Shown: one piece after another, positions 6,497 to 20,679 of the stretch
Layout: each line of letters opens with the position of its first letter
Position numbering within the stretch: position 1 is the stretch's first letter
Assembly (NCBI RefSeq): GCF_900104625.1
Contig: NZ_FNVZ01000004.1
Coordinates: forward strand, 124,001 to 188,000
Source of the DNA: Leptotrichia massiliensis
GTDB lineage: Bacteria; Fusobacteriota; Fusobacteriia; Fusobacteriales; Leptotrichiaceae
Direction: 5' to 3'
DNA: 64,000 nucleotides
Notes under the pieces: model-generated
Database searches by the model: none
What the model was told of the DNA's origin: nothing
What the model saw: only the letters and a program-made list of their open reading frames with translations
Program-made: the position numbers and the translations under genes

Positions 6497-7594
6497 TTAC
6501 AATACTCTTTTTTTACTTTCCAAAACCCTATCCAAAATCACAATTGCCGTAGCCGCTTCCAATACAGGAACTACTCTTGGCACTATTATTGGATCATGTC
6601 TTCCTCTCACTTCTAAAATATCATTTTGCTTTGTTTCAATATTTACAGTTTTTTGTGCTTTTTCAATTGAAGCCGTCGGTTTTATCGCCACTTTAAATGA
6701 TATTGGCATTCCAGTCGTTATTCCACCTATGATTCCACCGTTATTATTTGAAAATGATTTTATATTACCTTTTTCATCATAAAACATTTCATCATTTGCT
6801 TCATATCCTGTCATTTCTGTAATTCCAAAGCCTGCTCCAAATTCTATTCCCTTTGTGGCTGGCACTGAGAAAATCATTCTTGAAAGTTCACTTTCCATAG
6901 ATTCAAAATATGGGTCTCCTATTCCCGCAGGAAGTCCTGTAACCATAAGTTCTACAATTCCACCAAGTGAATTCTTTTCTTCCCTAGTTTTTTCCACAGC
7001 CTTCTCGATTTTTTCCACAATTTCCTCATTCAAGACAGGTAAAGTCATATTTCTGAGTTTATCAATATTTTCCTCTGTAATATCACTTTCCATAAAGTCC
7101 CTATCTTCAATATCCTTTACGAATTTGATATGAGCTGCAATTAAAATTCCCTGATTCTTTAAAACCTGCTTTGCAATTGCTCCAGCAAATACCAATGAAG
7201 CCGTTATTCTACCAGAAAAATGCCCGCTTCCACGAATATCATTAAATCCGTTATATCTGTTAAATCCGCTCCAGTCTGCATGTCCTGGTCTTGGCTTTCT
7301 TTTTAATTCGCTGTAATCCTTTGAACGCTGATTTGAATTTCTAATAATCATCGCAAGTGGCGTTCCAGTCGTCTTTCCTTCAAAAAATCCACTCAAAATC
7401 TCAAATTCATCCTTTTCCACTCTAGGTGTTGTCAATTTTGATCTTCCAGGTGCTCTTCTTCTCATTTCCTGCGAGATAAATTCTATATCCAGCTCCGTTC
7501 CTGCCGGAATTCCATCAATATTCACTCCCAATGCACTACCATGTGATTCACCAAAAATTGATATTTTATAATTTTTTCCAAAATTTGCTCCCAT
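6497..7594 (-). CDS. aroC: Chorismate synthase
   Basis: It converts 5-enolpyruvylshikimate-3-phosphate to chorismate with reduced FMN as cofactor, the last shikimate-pathway step. Signature stretches are FGESHGSALG near the N-terminus, RRRAPGRSKLTTPR, RPGHADWSG, RGSGHFSGRITA and the C-terminal GRHDPIIVPRVVPVLEA. The length of 365 aa is typical. aroC, aroA, aroB, tyrA and the DAHP synthase all lie on this strand between 6.5 and 19.8 kb, though not contiguously. An esterase gene separates aroC from aroA. Confidence 0.97.
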   Translation of the reverse strand: MGANFGKNYKISIFGESHGSALGVNIDGIPAGTELDIEFISQEMRRRAPGRSKLTTPRVEKDEFEILSGFFEGKTTGTPLAMIIRNSNQRSKDYSELKRKPRPGHADWSGFNRYNGFNDIRGSGHFSGRITASLVFAGAIAKQVLKNQGILIAAHIKFVKDIEDRDFMESDITEENIDKLRNMTLPVLNEEIVEKIEKAVEKTREEKNSLGGIVELMVTGLPAGIGDPYFESMESELSRMIFSVPATKGIEFGAGFGITEMTGYEANDEMFYDEKGNIKSFSNNNGGIIGGITTGMPISFKVAIKPTASIEKAQKTVNIETKQNDILEVRGRHDPIIVPRVVPVLEAATAIVILDRVLESKKRVL

Positions 7595-9634: not shown

Positions 9635-10930
9635 TTACTTCTCAATAATCTCAATTTCTCCACCCATTTTTACAAAATCATCCCAGAAATGCGGATAAGA
9701 TTTTCTGACACTTTCAGCCTCTTCCAGAATTATTTCCTTTTCACATCTTGTTGAAGCAATCGCAAGCGACATTGCAATTCTATGATCATTCCATGCATTT
9801 ACTGTAACTCCACCTTTAAATCCTTCTACACCTTGAATTATTAAACTGTCCCCTTCCTCAGCTACATTCGCTCCAAGTTTATTCAGTTCAGTCTTTATCG
9901 AAGTTATTCTATCCGACTCCTTTATTCTAAGTCTTTCTCCATTAATAATCCTAGTTTCCCCTTCACTCAAGGCTCCTAATACTGTCAAAATTGGCCCAAT
10001 ATCAGGACATTGCGAAATATCAATTACTGTTCCTTTAGTTTTAGAAGGTCTCACAAGTACATAATTATCGAAAATCTCGATATCTGCTCCCATTCTTTCA
10101 ACAATTTCTATTATTTCCCTGTCGCCTTGTAGCGAATTCTTATTCACATGCAGACATTTCACTTCATTATCCTTATTTGCAGAAATTATTCCAGCCACAA
10201 TCCAAAACGCCACTTGTGAATAATCCCCCTCAACAGTATAATCAAACGGCCTATAAATCTGATTTCCCTTTATATCAAAACTCTTATAGTCATTGTTCAC
10301 AATCTCAATTCCTGCCAGTTTCAATATTTCCAATGTCAAATCAATATATCCCTTTGACTCCAGATTCTTATTAATAGTCAGCTTTGAATCTCCGTCCAAG
10401 AGCGGCAGGGCATACAAAAGTCCCGTAATAAACTGTGAACTTATATTCCCGTCAATTTCATAATTTCCTGCCTTCAATTTTCCATTCACTGTAAGTGGCA
10501 ATTTACCATTCTCATTTTTATAAAAAATTCCCTGTTTATCAAAAATCCTATAATACGAGTCAAGCGGTCTGTCCACTAGCTTTCCCTTTCCATCGAAAAT
10601 CAGCTCATTTTCATCTGTAATCCCAATCGGTATCAAAAACCTGATTGTAGATCCCGATTCATTACATTGCACATGCTTATCCTTTGGAACGACTTTTCCG
10701 CCATTTCCAATAATTTCAAGAGAACTTTCCTCTCGATTGATTTTCGCTCCCCAGTTTTCCATAATATCCGTTGTTGTTGTAATATCCACCGAGAACTTCA
10801 AATTATCAATCTTTGACTTCTTCCCGCCTTCAGCTAATGCAGCCGCAATCACTGCTCTGTGTGAATAACTTTTAGATGGCGGAATTTCTATTGTACCGTT
10901 TAATATGCTTGGTTTTATCGCTATTTTCAT
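9635..10930 (-). CDS. aroA: 3-phosphoshikimate 1-carboxyvinyltransferase (EPSP synthase)
   Basis: The enzyme transfers enolpyruvyl from PEP to shikimate-3-phosphate in the cytosol. Recognisable stretches are PPSKSYSHRAVIAAALAEG, NESGSTIRFLIPIG, DGNISSQFITGLLYA, the EGDYSQVAFW segment and the C-terminal WNDHRIAMSLAIAS and SYPHFWDDF. I start at ATG 10930 (about 431 aa), which follows AGAGGAA at normal spacing; the open frame extends upstream to an ATG touching the stop of the previous gene. NESGST rather than NAGTA suggests a class II-like active site, but that is a loose inference. Confidence 0.95.
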   Translation of the reverse strand: MKIAIKPSILNGTIEIPPSKSYSHRAVIAAALAEGGKKSKIDNLKFSVDITTTTDIMENWGAKINREESSLEIIGNGGKVVPKDKHVQCNESGSTIRFLIPIGITDENELIFDGKGKLVDRPLDSYYRIFDKQGIFYKNENGKLPLTVNGKLKAGNYEIDGNISSQFITGLLYALPLLDGDSKLTINKNLESKGYIDLTLEILKLAGIEIVNNDYKSFDIKGNQIYRPFDYTVEGDYSQVAFWIVAGIISANKDNEVKCLHVNKNSLQGDREIIEIVERMGADIEIFDNYVLVRPSKTKGTVIDISQCPDIGPILTVLGALSEGETRIINGERLRIKESDRITSIKTELNKLGANVAEEGDSLIIQGVEGFKGGVTVNAWNDHRIAMSLAIASTRCEKEIILEEAESVRKSYPHFWDDFVKMGGEIEIIEK

Positions 10931-10954
10931 AAATTCCTCTTCTTCCTTTAGCAT

Positions 10955-14459: not shown

Positions 14460-15551
14460 TTACTCAAAAATCTCCTTTTCCCCAATCTTCATAATTTCAA
14501 CTTCCCCAATTTCCTTCAGAATTACAAAATTAATTCCATCACTCGTACTTTTCTTATCCCTTTTCATAATATCCGAAATCTTATCTTTCGGATATTCGAT
14601 CTCAGTTGGTAAATTCAATGCCTTCAATAGTTTCTCAATTTTTACAGATTCATCCTTTTTTGTAAACCCTTTTTCCTCTCCAATTTTTGTAATGTTCACC
14701 ATTCCAGCAGAAATTGCTTCCCCATGTGAATATTTCTCATAATTTGTAAACTGCTCTATTGCATGTCCGATAGTATGTCCAAAATTCAATATCATTCTCA
14801 AATTACTTTCCTTCTCATCTTTTTCCACAACTTCCTTTTTTATCTCACATGAACGGTAAACAAACTCATTTACATATTTCATCAAATGTTCACGCAATTT
14901 CTGTTTATAATTTTCATCATCATAAGAAACTTCAACTGTTTCCACTATTTCCACAAGTCTATCAAAAAATTTCTTATCATAAATACATCCATATTTCACA
15001 ATTTCTGCAAATCCATCATAAAAATATCTGTCCGTCAATGTATTCAAAAAATAATTATCAATTAAGACAAGTTTCGGCTGATGAAATGCCCCAACAAGAT
15101 TTTTTCCCTCCGGCAAGTCAACTCCGACTTTTCCACCAACACTGCTGTCAACTTGTGAAACTATCGTCGTGGGTATCTGCATAAATCCAATCCCACGCAT
15201 ATAACTGGCAGCCGCAAATCCGGCAATATCTCCAACAACTCCACCACCAAATGCAACAACCATATCCTTTCTCGTAAGCCCTGAATTTACCATTGCAGAA
15301 TAAATTCCTGGCATTATACCAATATGCTTATTTTTCTCTCCAGCTTCCAGCACATAAATTGTATAATCAAAGCCTTTAAACATCTCCTCATACTGATTCC
15401 TGTAAATTTTATCCACATTAGAATCCGTAATCACAAATAATTTTTTTCCATTATAAATCTTTTTAATATACTTAGTAAATTTCTCAAAAAAATTCTTTCC
15501 AATTACAATATCATAAGAATTTTCCTCCAGTCCAACATTCAATATTTCCAT
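14460..15551 (-). CDS. aroB: 3-dehydroquinate synthase
   Basis: It cyclises DAHP to 3-dehydroquinate using NAD+ and a divalent metal in the cytosol. The NAD loop GGGVVGDIAGFAA, the PTTIVSQVDSSVGGK segment and the metal-binding residues in FAEIVKYG, NFGHTIGHAIE and YSHGEAIS are all visible. I start at ATG 15551 because GGAG with 6-nt spacing precedes it; an in-frame ATG four codons earlier sits directly on AAGAGGAA. The resulting 363 aa is a normal AroB length. Confidence 0.96.
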   Translation of the reverse strand: MEILNVGLEENSYDIVIGKNFFEKFTKYIKKIYNGKKLFVITDSNVDKIYRNQYEEMFKGFDYTIYVLEAGEKNKHIGIMPGIYSAMVNSGLTRKDMVVAFGGGVVGDIAGFAAASYMRGIGFMQIPTTIVSQVDSSVGGKVGVDLPEGKNLVGAFHQPKLVLIDNYFLNTLTDRYFYDGFAEIVKYGCIYDKKFFDRLVEIVETVEVSYDDENYKQKLREHLMKYVNEFVYRSCEIKKEVVEKDEKESNLRMILNFGHTIGHAIEQFTNYEKYSHGEAISAGMVNITKIGEEKGFTKKDESVKIEKLLKALNLPTEIEYPKDKISDIMKRDKKSTSDGINFVILKEIGEVEIMKIGEKEIFE

Positions 15552-15655
15552 AATTTTCTCCATTTCCTCTTCTTTATGTGTATATTAAAATATAGCAAAA
15601 CCATTAAATTCTGTCATTTAAAATGATTTTACTATAAATAAAATTTTATTTAAAA

Positions 15656-16866: not shown

Positions 16867-17742
16867 TTAATCAATTTTTTCCCGCCGTTTTGTTGAAATT
16901 ATAAATTTTTCTTTTAAAGTTCCTAAATCATTGCTGTTTAAGGTTTCTTTTATTATATCTAGTTCTCTTTCAAACTGCTGTATCATTTTTAAAAGATTCT
17001 TTTTATTTCCCATAAAAAGTTCTGCCCACAAATCTTCATTTATTTTCGCAATTCTCGTCAAATCCCGATAAGAATCCCCAATAAATCGATTTGTATCGTA
17101 CTTTTCACTATCACTGTTTACAAGCGAAACTGCAATTGCGTGGGTAAGCTGGCTCGTAAACGCAATAATCTCATCATGTTCCTTTGCCGTAAGAAAACTG
17201 ACTTTCTTAAATCCCATCAGCTTCACAATTTCCGACAGCAATTCTAGATTTTCTTTTTTATTTTTTTCATCCTTAATAATTATATAATTTGCATCTTTAA
17301 ATACTCTATTGTCTGCAAAATCAATCCCGCGTTTCTCACGTCCCGCCATAGGATGTCCAAAAATAAAGTCAATATTTCTTCCACTCTTCTCAATAATTGG
17401 ATCAATATCCTTAATAATTTTCTCTTTAATTCCAACAACATCAGTAATTATAGAGTTTTCCTTAAAATAATTAATATTATTTACAAAAAACGACTTCATC
17501 AAATTCGGATAAAGAGTAATTATCACAAAATCCGACTTTTCCAAAGGCTCTCTTGTTTCCAAAAAACCTTTATTTATAATATTTTTTTCTTCTGCCTTCT
17601 TTATCGTTTCCTCATCAATATCAATCCCATAAACAGTCTTAATGCCCATTTCCTTAAAACTCTGTGCAAAAGCTGCTCCAATTACTCCGAGTCCAACTAT
17701 TGTTACTGTCAAATTTTCTATTTTTTTTAAAATTGTAAACAC
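16867..17742 (-). CDS. tyrA: Prephenate dehydrogenase
   Basis: It oxidatively decarboxylates prephenate to 4-hydroxyphenylpyruvate in tyrosine synthesis. The Rossmann motif VGLGVIGAAFAQSFKEMG, the acidic end of strand 2 in YGIDID and the substrate-region motif GHPMAGREKRGIDFAD are present. It is the monofunctional form (291 aa): no chorismate mutase or ACT domain. The start is unusual. The open frame begins with GTG at 17742, but AAGGGG lies only about one base before it; an ATT codon eight bases from that site (17731-17733) is better spaced. No ATG is available near the N-terminus. Confidence 0.93.
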   Translation of the reverse strand: MFTILKKIENLTVTIVGLGVIGAAFAQSFKEMGIKTVYGIDIDEETIKKAEEKNIINKGFLETREPLEKSDFVIITLYPNLMKSFFVNNINYFKENSIITDVVGIKEKIIKDIDPIIEKSGRNIDFIFGHPMAGREKRGIDFADNRVFKDANYIIIKDEKNKKENLELLSEIVKLMGFKKVSFLTAKEHDEIIAFTSQLTHAIAVSLVNSDSEKYDTNRFIGDSYRDLTRIAKINEDLWAELFMGNKKNLLKMIQQFERELDIIKETLNSNDLGTLKEKFIISTKRREKID

Positions 17743-18825: not shown

Positions 18826-19848
18826 TTATTTAAAACTTTTCCCCAACACATTCGCAATCTTCTCCACATCCTGCATCAAGTCATCAAACACTTCAAATTT
18901 CAATGATTGAGGCCCATCTGACAATGCCTTGTCTGGCTCAGGATGTACTTCTACCATTAATCCGTCTGCTCCAGCGGCAATCCCTGCCATTGCAAGAGGT
19001 TTTACCATCCAGTATTTTCCAGTTGCGTGAGCTGAATCTACGATTATCGGCAAGTGTGTTAATTTTTTAATCATCGGCACTGCATTCAAATCTAGTACAT
19101 TTCTGTATGCTGTTTCATAAGTTCTGATTCCTCTTTCACAAAGAACTACATTTTCATTTCCGCCAGCCAAAATGTATTCTGCCGACATTAACCATTCTTC
19201 AATTGTTGCACTCAATCCTCTTTTTAACAATACTGGAATATTTGTTTTCCCAACTTCTTTCAGCAAATCAAAATTTTGCATATTTCTCGCACCTAACTGA
19301 ATCATATCAAGATGTGGACCAAATTCATGCAATTGAGCAATTGACATAACTTCGCATATTATTGGAAGTCCTGTTTCTTCTTTTGCTTTTTTCATCAATT
19401 CAATACCTTCCATCCCTAATCCTTGAAAAGCATAAGGCGATGTTCTAGGTTTTACAACTCCACCTCTTAAGATATTTGCTCCAGCCATTTTTACAGCTTT
19501 TGCCGTATCAATTATCTGCTTCTCATTTTCGACAGAACAAGGTCCTGCCATCATTACAAGCTTATTTCCGCCAATTTCTACATTTCCCACTTTTACAATA
19601 GTATCTTCTGGCTTAAATTTTCGGCTTGCTCTCTTATAAGGCTCTTGCACTCTTTGTACATCCAGCACATAATCTAGCGCCTGAATATGCTTTATATCAA
19701 TTGTGCTAATATCCCCAACCAATCCTAAAATTGAATATTCTTTGCCAGCAATTAATTTAACGCTTACATTATTTTCCGTTTCCAATCTGTTTATCAATTT
19801 TTCCAAGATTTTTTCACTTATTCCGCCATCTACTTTAATAATCATCAT
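18826..19848 (-). CDS. aroF: 3-deoxy-7-phosphoheptulonate (DAHP) synthase, with N-terminal regulatory-type domain
   Basis: It condenses PEP and erythrose-4-phosphate, the first shikimate-pathway step. A ferredoxin-like domain of about 85 residues precedes the TIM barrel, the arrangement of the Thermotoga-type/AroA(G) branch. Barrel motifs are MMAGPCSVENE, GGVVKPRTSPYAFQGLG, LLKRGLSATIEEW, CERGIRTYE and VDSAHATGK. I start at the first of two ATGs at 19848, after ATAGGAG; the upstream in-frame extension has no good site. aroF is used as a generic symbol, because isozyme type is not determinable. Confidence 0.94.
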   Translation of the reverse strand: MMIIKVDGGISEKILEKLINRLETENNVSVKLIAGKEYSILGLVGDISTIDIKHIQALDYVLDVQRVQEPYKRASRKFKPEDTIVKVGNVEIGGNKLVMMAGPCSVENEKQIIDTAKAVKMAGANILRGGVVKPRTSPYAFQGLGMEGIELMKKAKEETGLPIICEVMSIAQLHEFGPHLDMIQLGARNMQNFDLLKEVGKTNIPVLLKRGLSATIEEWLMSAEYILAGGNENVVLCERGIRTYETAYRNVLDLNAVPMIKKLTHLPIIVDSAHATGKYWMVKPLAMAGIAAGADGLMVEVHPEPDKALSDGPQSLKFEVFDDLMQDVEKIANVLGKSFK

Positions 19849-19910: not shown

Positions 19911-20231
19911 TTAACCTACAACTACAGCTGTTCCGCTGCAAGTTACCATAAGCATTCCATTGTCTGCTCCTAATACTTCGTAATCCATTTTTACACCAAT
20001 AATGGCATTTGCACCAAGATTTGCAGCCCTAGTTTTCATTTCCTCCAGAGCATTCTCTCTTGCCGTCAAAAGCTCGTCTTCATAGCCTTTAGATCTTCCT
20101 CCAAAAATATTTCTCAAGCTTGCCCCCATATCTTTAAACATATTAATTCCTGAAATAACCTCTCCAAAAACAATCCCTTTATATTCCATAACTTTTTTAT
20201 CCTGAATTTCATTTGTAGTTGTAATAATCAT
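19911..20231 (-). CDS. UPF0145 / YbjQ-family protein
   Basis: The 106-aa sequence has the family pattern: an ITTTNEI start, the [12 protein letters not shown] strand, helix [22 protein letters not shown] and the C-terminal GTAVVV strand. YbjQ-type proteins form pentamers and are annotated as putative metal-binding, but their function is not known. AGAGGT precedes the ATG. A hairpin with a long T-run (20259-20292) lies only about 30 bp upstream of its start, so expression may depend on read-through or on a promoter within that short stretch. Confidence 0.85.
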
Positions 20232-20258: not shown

Positions 20259-20292
20259 AAAAAAAAACTCTCTTAAAATAACTTTAGGAGAG
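20259..20292 (-). terminator. Terminator immediately upstream of the UPF0145 gene
   Basis: Arms at 20268-20277 (CTCTCTTAAA) and 20283-20292 (TTTAGGAGAG) pair over about 10 bp with one G-T pair. Nine T follow on the minus strand. It ends transcripts coming from the ORF-free region 20293-20650. Confidence 0.75.
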
Positions 20293-20645
20293 GATAAATA
20301 TAAATATTTATACATAACATTTATTTCTATATTTTACGATACTTTAATAGTTTATTTACTTAAGCCAAAATTTATAAAATTTGCCTAAACGAATCAAAGA
20401 TACTTTTAATCATTATAAGCAACTATTATACTTCAAACCTCTACATCCAGTAATTACACTTAATTAACCTCAAATCTCTCATTTTTCCAAAATTATTCAA
20501 AATTAATTAACTATAAGTCTCTATTCTTTTGTAAATCCTGCAAATCTTCAACACTACTAATTTTCTAAACTGCTAAACTACCTTTTGTATCTTCATTTTT
20601 CAATAAATTTAATTTCCTACTATCCTGCTATCCTACTAATTATTT
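20259..20645 (-). ncRNA. Candidate ORF-free transcription unit of about 385 nt
   Basis: A near-consensus promoter on the minus strand (TTGACA 20674-20679, 17-bp spacer, TATGAT 20651-20656) would start RNA near 20644. The next intrinsic terminator is at 20259-20292. In between, all frames are full of stops, so no protein is likely. The minus-strand sequence is rich in G, A and T, and poor in C, with TAG-containing near-repeats (GGATAGCAGGATAGTAGGA near the 5' end). It does not resemble tmRNA or RNase P RNA. It may be a regulatory RNA, a long leader for the UPF0145 gene, or a decayed gene. Confidence 0.4.
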
Positions 20646-20650
20646 CATAT

Positions 20651-20679
20651 ATCATAACAAATATTAAATATATTGTCAA
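20651..20679 (-). promoter_or_regulatory. Near-consensus promoter with no gene directly downstream
   Basis: TTGACA, 17 bp, TATGAT on the minus strand: one mismatch from the full sigma-70 consensus. It lies just after the rpmE2 terminator (20717-20745), so it cannot serve rpmE2. Confidence 0.7.

Follow-up and report, generated by a model that had tools for sequence, protein, structure and literature searches.

In the hut mRNA of Bacillus subtilis, the triplets bound by HutP are separated by 4-nt spacers, the site lies in the terminator region, and histidine and Mg2+ are the effectors of the protein. A second RNA-binding regulator of Bacillus, TRAP (MtrB), has a transporter target. According to the available part of PMC7430163, B. 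subtilis HutP keeps the terminator from forming and recognizes two clusters, each of three NAG triplets, and according to that of PMC4347634, TRAP of Bacillus uses a UAG-rich site near the 5' end of a terminator-ended leader and blocks a ribosome-binding site with the same protein. Here we describe a region of Leptotrichia massiliensis, within a window of 64,000 nt (the whole stretch of DNA that was analysed), which is likely the 5' leader of an aromatic-amino-acid operon and a protein-controlled transcription attenuator, its UAG clusters being read by a HutP-family protein with an aromatic effector. We base this reading on the anatomy and conservation of the leader, the spacing of its UAG triplets, their specificity for two loci and the gene neighbourhood of hutP, all of which are taken from the genome sequences. 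As in the HutP/hut system of B. subtilis (PMC7430163, available part), a PF09021 protein, UAG/NAG triplet clusters and an intrinsic terminator are present. Unlike in that system, the Leptotrichia targets are shikimate and TrpX-type uptake genes, the triplets follow distances of 3, 5 and 8 with a period of 8 and lie near the 5' end rather than at the terminator, and binding is expected to turn the operon off in response to an effector that is not expected to be histidine. With TRAP the leader shares a UAG-rich 5' site, a terminator and a reader that would also block a ribosome-binding site; it differs in that no TRAP match was found in the 40 relatives searched, the operon serves the common shikimate pathway, and the triplets are not the 9-11 (G/U)AG repeats at even 2-nt (2-3 nt) spacers of TRAP sites.

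The elements that delimit the leader are as follows.

20651-20679, minus strand: promoter with -35 TTGACA at 20679-20674 and TG-extended -10 TATGAT at 20656-20651, conserved in 10 of 10 aligned genomes
20259-20643, minus strand: whole leader, approximately 385 nt, running from the predicted transcript start through the U-tract
20259-20292, minus strand: intrinsic terminator, a weak stem CTCTC-C-TAAA/..TTTA-A-GAGAG followed by nine U
19911-20231, minus strand: UPF0145/YbjQ gene, the first ORF behind the leader and not a constant partner

A preliminary description of this region had proposed an ORF-free transcription unit of approximately 385 nt with a near-consensus promoter, and both features held up. 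The TTGACA-17-TATGAT promoter has 11 of 12 matches, carries a TG before the -10 element and ranks at the top of 26 promoter-like sites in a 3-kb scan, and the ORF list contains no minus-strand ORF of at least 30 aa between this promoter and the terminator. A hidden small protein of at least 30 aa was rejected on the same ground and because of the many indels in the alignment. The terminator, which had been called good, does form a stem with nine U in the minimum-energy fold, but at about -6.7 kcal/mol it is weak, and it is unlisted in a simple scan because its loop and mismatch exceed the limits of that scan. The flanks are as first described: 27 nt (given as 30 bp) separate the terminator from the UPF0145 ATG at 20231, too few to accommodate a full promoter of the next gene, and on the other side the leader is bounded by the rpmE2 terminator at 20747-20718. 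The unit had also been considered unlike tmRNA, RNase P RNA or a known riboswitch, in agreement with our finding of no Rfam family at gathering score in the 64-kb window and just three matches, with E 8-10, in a permissive search of the leader region. The overall stability of the leader RNA is not unusual compared to shuffled sequence (z -0.67), and a single fold of the whole leader is uninformative.

In each of the 13 Leptotrichia genomes, we found the leader upstream of the aroF operon. The aromatic genes of this operon in the window are listed here.

18826-19848, minus strand: aroF, DAHP synthase, the constant partner of the leader
16867-17742, minus strand: prephenate dehydrogenase (tyrA)
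14460-15563, minus strand: 3-dehydroquinate synthase (aroB)
9635-10954, minus strand: EPSP synthase (aroA)

Behind aroF, the gene order is a TPR protein, prephenate dehydrogenase, an acetyltransferase, a DUF2262 protein, 3-dehydroquinate synthase and, further on, EPSP synthase, and the genes UPF0145-aroF-...-tyrA-...-aroB-...-aroA would constitute one co-transcribed operon. The preliminary description mentioned neither the aromatic genes behind UPF0145 nor the UAG clusters. It had suggested aligning sister genomes and scoring them for covariation; the conservation was borne out, since a DNA search recovered the promoter, several body blocks and the terminator in 10 of the 13 Leptotrichia genomes, but covariation was not found. 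The remaining three genomes (G005, G007 and G012) carry a diverged leader, consisting of promoter, GUAGGAUAGUAGG and terminator, directly before the first aroF; it was missed by the DNA search and found by reading the sequence before aroF. Most prominent in the alignment are the promoter, a 5' block, a UAAACUAUUAAA block and the terminator, and in half of the aligned genomes (5/10) there are 83-108 extra nt between the promoter and the 5' block. In one genome, G006 (L003), this 5' insert and the upstream flank resemble those of G011 (L010) by eye while the body is 93% identical to that of G000, and a recombination point just behind the promoter is possible.

Upstream of the leader, rpmE2 was present at 7 of 10 loci and was not found within the available stretch at the other three. 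Downstream, UPF0145 follows at 9 of 10 loci, and at the tenth, in L. hongkongensis (G008), a decayed remnant of UPF0145 lies between the intact leader and aroF (L092, approximately 6722-6952, plus strand). UPF0145 is located after aroF in G005 and G012, and no UPF0145 match at E 1e-10 was found in G007 or G008. Because the leader persists where UPF0145 has moved, is absent or has decayed, we regard the DAHP synthase gene as its constant partner, and UPF0145 was rejected as the gene proper under control. Two tandem DAHP synthase genes occur in G005, G007, G012, G021 and G022 (L090, L091, L089, L107 and L106, respectively); the other 10 Leptotrichia have one operon DAHP synthase, and the three Leptotrichia with two are those with a diverged leader. 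Across Leptotrichiaceae, aroF was matched in 23 of 33 genomes, 19 of which carry the core motif GUAGGRUAGNAGG upstream of it; in G019, G040, G017 and G041, HutP and aroF are both present and the core motif was not found before aroF.

The preliminary description had left two options, a stand-alone ncRNA or a leader with its terminator as a switch. As a trans-acting ncRNA, the unit could act as a protein sponge through its UAG clusters, as CsrB does for CsrA, and its own promoter and terminator, its varying upstream neighbours and its survival of UPF0145 decay would all suit such a role. We nevertheless consider this reading very improbable, given that all 13 Leptotrichia have the RNA upstream of the aroF operon, irrespective of the gene in between, and that there is no room for another promoter behind its terminator. 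The constant aroF partner thus disfavors the first option, although a short terminated RNA is still expected whenever the switch is off, and the leader might have a side role as a sponge. The second option appears to be the better one from the sequence, since the unit pairs with aroF and not with UPF0145 or rpmE2, leaves no space for another promoter and has UAG clusters that recur before trpX. The Leptotrichia passage in the available part of PMC8040213 concerns ToxN and not the leader RNA.

The UAG triplets of the leader form two clusters.

20617-20638, minus strand: UAG cluster 1, with UAG at 20638, 20635, 20630, 20622 and 20619 and CAG at 20627, starting at about +6
20554-20580, minus strand: UAG cluster 2, with UAG at 20580, 20575, 20567, 20559 and 20556 and CAG at 20572

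In the leader of G000, the clusters span positions +6 to +27 and +64 to +90 counted from the predicted start, and the terminator begins near +352. We calculated UAG spacing for 28 leaders, of which 19 precede the aroF operon and 9 precede trpX; those of the same genus are related and not independent. UAG pairs at a distance of 3, 5 or 8 number 4-14 per leader compared to 0.2-1.4 expected, and in each of the 28 leaders at most 1 of 300 dinucleotide shuffles attains the observed count. The distances 3, 5 and 8 were picked after inspecting the Leptotrichia leaders. An all-distance scan took 20 of the 28 leaders, divided into three groups and free of near-duplicates; the six Fusobacteriaceae trpX leaders, which were unused in choosing the distances, gave the same peaks at 3, 5, 8, 13 and 16 (z 12, 14, 23, 10 and 12, respectively). 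Distance 7, which 4-nt spacers as in hut mRNA would produce, is not enriched in the three groups (observed 4, 3 and 0 versus expected 2.7, 2.2 and 1.0); a period-7 triple occurs in just 1 of the 28 leaders, and 25 of them contain period-8 triples that include two or more UAG. Distances of 3, 5 and 8 are mixed within clusters, which hold 3-6 UAG, and 20 of the 28 leaders have at least two clusters of at least three UAG, the other 8 having one cluster. The total UAG count is above that of shuffles in only part of the leaders. Arrays with a score of at least 4 occur in the 64-kb window only at 20638 and 20580, both inside the leader. In 18 other loci, scanned on both strands (375,036 bases), such arrays occur at 5 places, all of them target sites, and only 5 of the 10 target sites in those loci reach a score of 4. 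The leaders of other genera (G013, G020, G021, G022, G042 and G044) share only short elements with that of the window, namely GAGUAGGAUAGUAGGAUAGUAGG-like stretches close to the 5' end and, upstream of aroF, a terminator.

The core motif GUAGGRUAGNAGG has 31 matches at 26 loci in the 13 Leptotrichia genomes, and in every genome these are the aro leader and a trpX site and nowhere else: 18 matches fall in the aro leader and 13 lie no more than approximately 150 nt from a PF04392 gene. The 20 remaining genomes of Leptotrichiaceae contain 20 core matches, spread over 9 genomes, and 19 of these matches are on the two targets; the last one is antisense inside a gene in G019. The second-target gene is TrpX-like (PF04392, E 1.3e-70; NCBIfam TrpX, E 2e-75, yet below the model cut-off), and downstream of it in G000 come another copy, a permease and an ATPase. 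In Streptococcus suis, TrpX belongs to a putative tryptophan uptake system (PMC9382623, available part). All 16 trpX sites read have 8-18 nt between the end of the motif and the start codon, and at the trpX sites of non-Leptotrichia genera it runs into the Shine-Dalgarno sequence. Since the motif lies just before or over the ribosome-binding site, any binder should hinder translation. Of the 11 core matches in Fusobacteriaceae, two are trpX sites and two precede a symporter gene; one more lies upstream of aroA, and the remaining six are within or next to unrelated genes. Two HutP-bearing genomes, G028 (L285) and G065 (L286), have no PF04392 match; in each, a UAG array and a terminator stand upstream of a gene for a transporter, identified as a sodium:alanine symporter through Pfam in G028 and through likeness in G065. 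A symporter-type gene of this kind is possibly a substitute target in both. In G092 (L188), a HutP-bearing member of Fusobacteriaceae, GUAGGGUAGGAGG lies just before aroA and behind aroB (motif at 1501, reverse strand), which may be chance.

A candidate reader of the clusters is a HutP-family protein. HutP (PF09021) is found in 23 of 33 Leptotrichiaceae genomes, including all 13 Leptotrichia, and in 52 of 98 genomes across the phylum. Matches to the profile reach E 7e-39 (G000) and 1.9e-45 (G032) over profile positions 1-128, and the protein is distant from the solved Bacillus-type HutP, with no match in a single-sequence search and a profile E of 0.0069. In 8 of 8 Leptotrichiaceae loci read, hutP lies behind aroE, two to three other ORFs, aroK and aroQ; the genes of this cluster were named by family search in G000 (the shikimate kinase being below the models' cut-offs) and by likeness in the others. 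In four Sebaldella-like g9 genomes, the motif is placed between hutP and a PF04392 gene, approximately 100 nt downstream of the HutP domain. Nine of 21 further hutP loci, all nine in Fusobacteriaceae, show hutP followed by a promoter, UAG clusters, a terminator and a PF04392 gene, an arrangement that is absent from the other 12.

HutP is present in 31 of 33 genomes with the core motif compared to 21 of 65 genomes without it (Fisher 1.7e-9, in a test that ignores phylogeny). Within Leptotrichiaceae, HutP tracks the presence of aroF almost exactly, the two differing in G013 and G043 only, and therefore retention of the pathway alone could explain part of this co-occurrence. G013 has the leader and no HutP match, in a genome that is 88% complete. 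We also scored 60 regions upstream of PF04392 genes, drawn from among the matches listed and leaving out known motif carriers. Among the matches listed, UAG arrays with a score of at least 4 occur in 0 of 26 regions from 19 HutP-lacking genomes, one of which (G081) scores 3, equal to the shortest Leptotrichia trpX sites. They occur in 3 of 34 regions from HutP-bearing genomes (G029, G039 and G082, with trpX not next to hutP), leaving 31 of the 34 regions among these listed matches with no score-4 array. In three g18 genomes (L169, L171 and L172), hutP is directly followed by one gene, presumably for a PLP-dependent aldolase or lyase, which it resembles, and there is no score-4 UAG array at the PF04392 genes read; this arrangement is possibly a third use of HutP. 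UAG-based autoregulation of the aroE-hutP cluster was rejected, as no array was found in 5 of 5 stretches (2.5-2.7 kb) around the aroE start.

Some other RNA-binding protein might instead read the UAG clusters, the HutP homologue being a neighbour with a related but separate job. Such a protein would account for the HutP-bearing genomes that lack a UAG array at the PF04392 genes read, for the hutP genes that adjoin unrelated genes, and for a leader period of 8 where the B. subtilis hut mRNA has 4-nt spacers. We consider it unlikely, given that hutP is physically linked to UAG sites in two families and that two other candidate readers have no match in the 24 genomes of the family among 40 relatives searched: TRAP (PF02081) was rejected with matches in 0 of the 40, in a search that detected the B. 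subtilis control, and CsrA (PF02599) with matches in 2 of the 40, both outside the family. HutP itself binds NAG clusters, according to the available part of PMC7430163, which also argues for the HutP homologue as the reader.

Two further segments of the leader are complementary to the clusters.

20343-20354, minus strand: conserved block UAAACUAUUAAA, complementary to 20577-20566 of cluster 2 bar one C-A mismatch unique to the window's sequence
20285-20297, minus strand: UUAUCCUCUCCUA, covering the terminator's 5' arm and its 5' flank, complementary to UAG cluster 1 apart from two bulges and invariant in the alignment

In the consensus fold of the Leptotrichia alignment, cluster 1 pairs with UUAUCCUCUCCUA and cluster 2 with UAAACUAUUAAA. 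This alignment comprised 9 of the 10 genomes, G002 being left out as a near copy of G003. The fold contains 25 long-range pairs, for which 220 of 221 cells are standard pairs (99.5%) compared to 45-57% when the partners are slid, a control that favors a structure taken from the same alignment. None of the 25 pairs has changed on both sides, in columns that hardly vary; five vary on one side with pairing kept, and the sole broken cell is in the window's own cluster 2. For the RNA of the window, the minimum-energy fold includes the terminator, and the centroid pairs cluster 1 with the terminator arm instead. The duplex of cluster and terminator beats 88-98% of the other windows compared in ten type I leaders and 82-100% in three g9 leaders. 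It beats shuffled clusters at the 5% level in just 1 of 28 leaders (G012), and the Fusobacteriaceae leaders give no sign of a favored cluster-terminator duplex in this energy comparison.

A 5' leader with a terminator before an amino-acid operon could also be built as a protein-free riboswitch or a T-box, and a putative T-box controls trpX in Streptococcus suis (PMC9382623, available part). The streptococcal trpXYZ leader resembles our system in controlling a TrpX-type transporter and differs from it in that the Leptotrichia-type sites have UAG clusters and no Rfam T-box match. The chance that the aromatic operon is controlled in this way seems slim, since neither the window nor 13 additional loci bearing such sites gave an Rfam match for a leader, the structure is weak with two long-range helices lacking covariation, and the constant part is a short repeated triplet code that is common to trpX sites without a long leader.

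For the attenuator with a HutP-family reader, we infer the binding of the HutP-like protein, its effector, the direction of control and the competing structure as follows. The protein, encoded in a separate shikimate cluster (aroE-...-aroK-aroQ-hutP), would bind both UAG clusters, with tryptophan or another aromatic amino acid as its most likely effector. With the effector-loaded protein on the clusters, the terminator at 20292-20259 would form and the operon would be off. Under scarcity of the amino acid, the unbound clusters would be available for pairing, cluster 1 to the 5' arm of the terminator and cluster 2 to the block at 20354-20343; this would weaken the terminator and let RNA polymerase continue into UPF0145-aroF and the genes behind. 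At the TrpX-type transporter gene, repression would come from this protein occupying the ribosome-binding site, and the position of the trpX sites agrees with the same sign of control, where bound means off. Alternatively, the bound protein might act on RNA polymerase directly. TRAP and the HutP-like reader are unrelated, and the proposed logic is the same, in that the bound protein frees the terminator and the unbound leader reads through. Because the protein falls within the Pfam family of HutP and the RNA site differs in spacing and place, we regard the system as a variant of HutP-type control that would work like TRAP attenuation. We give even odds to the broader proposal that the Fusobacteriota HutP proteins are a second, independently arisen counterpart of TRAP, responding to aromatic amino acids, reading a UAGUAGNN code of period 8, attenuating shikimate operons over approximately 300 nt and stopping translation of a transporter gene by covering its ribosome-binding site.

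In the available parts of the open-access literature examined, HutP appears only as the histidine switch of Bacillus, and among titles and the beginnings of abstracts we found no link of HutP with aromatic amino acids, shikimate genes or Fusobacteriota. Likewise, no report on the control of shikimate genes and tryptophan-type uptake in the Leptotrichia/Fusobacterium group was found in the open-access literature. If HutP relatives of Fusobacteriota control the supply of aromatic amino acids, the PF09021 family gains a new function, a new effector and a new RNA code. The proposed regulon, with one protein, two leaders and a defined triplet code, is testable at once and, if true, would explain how shikimate genes and tryptophan-type uptake are controlled in Leptotrichia and in species of the Fusobacterium group.
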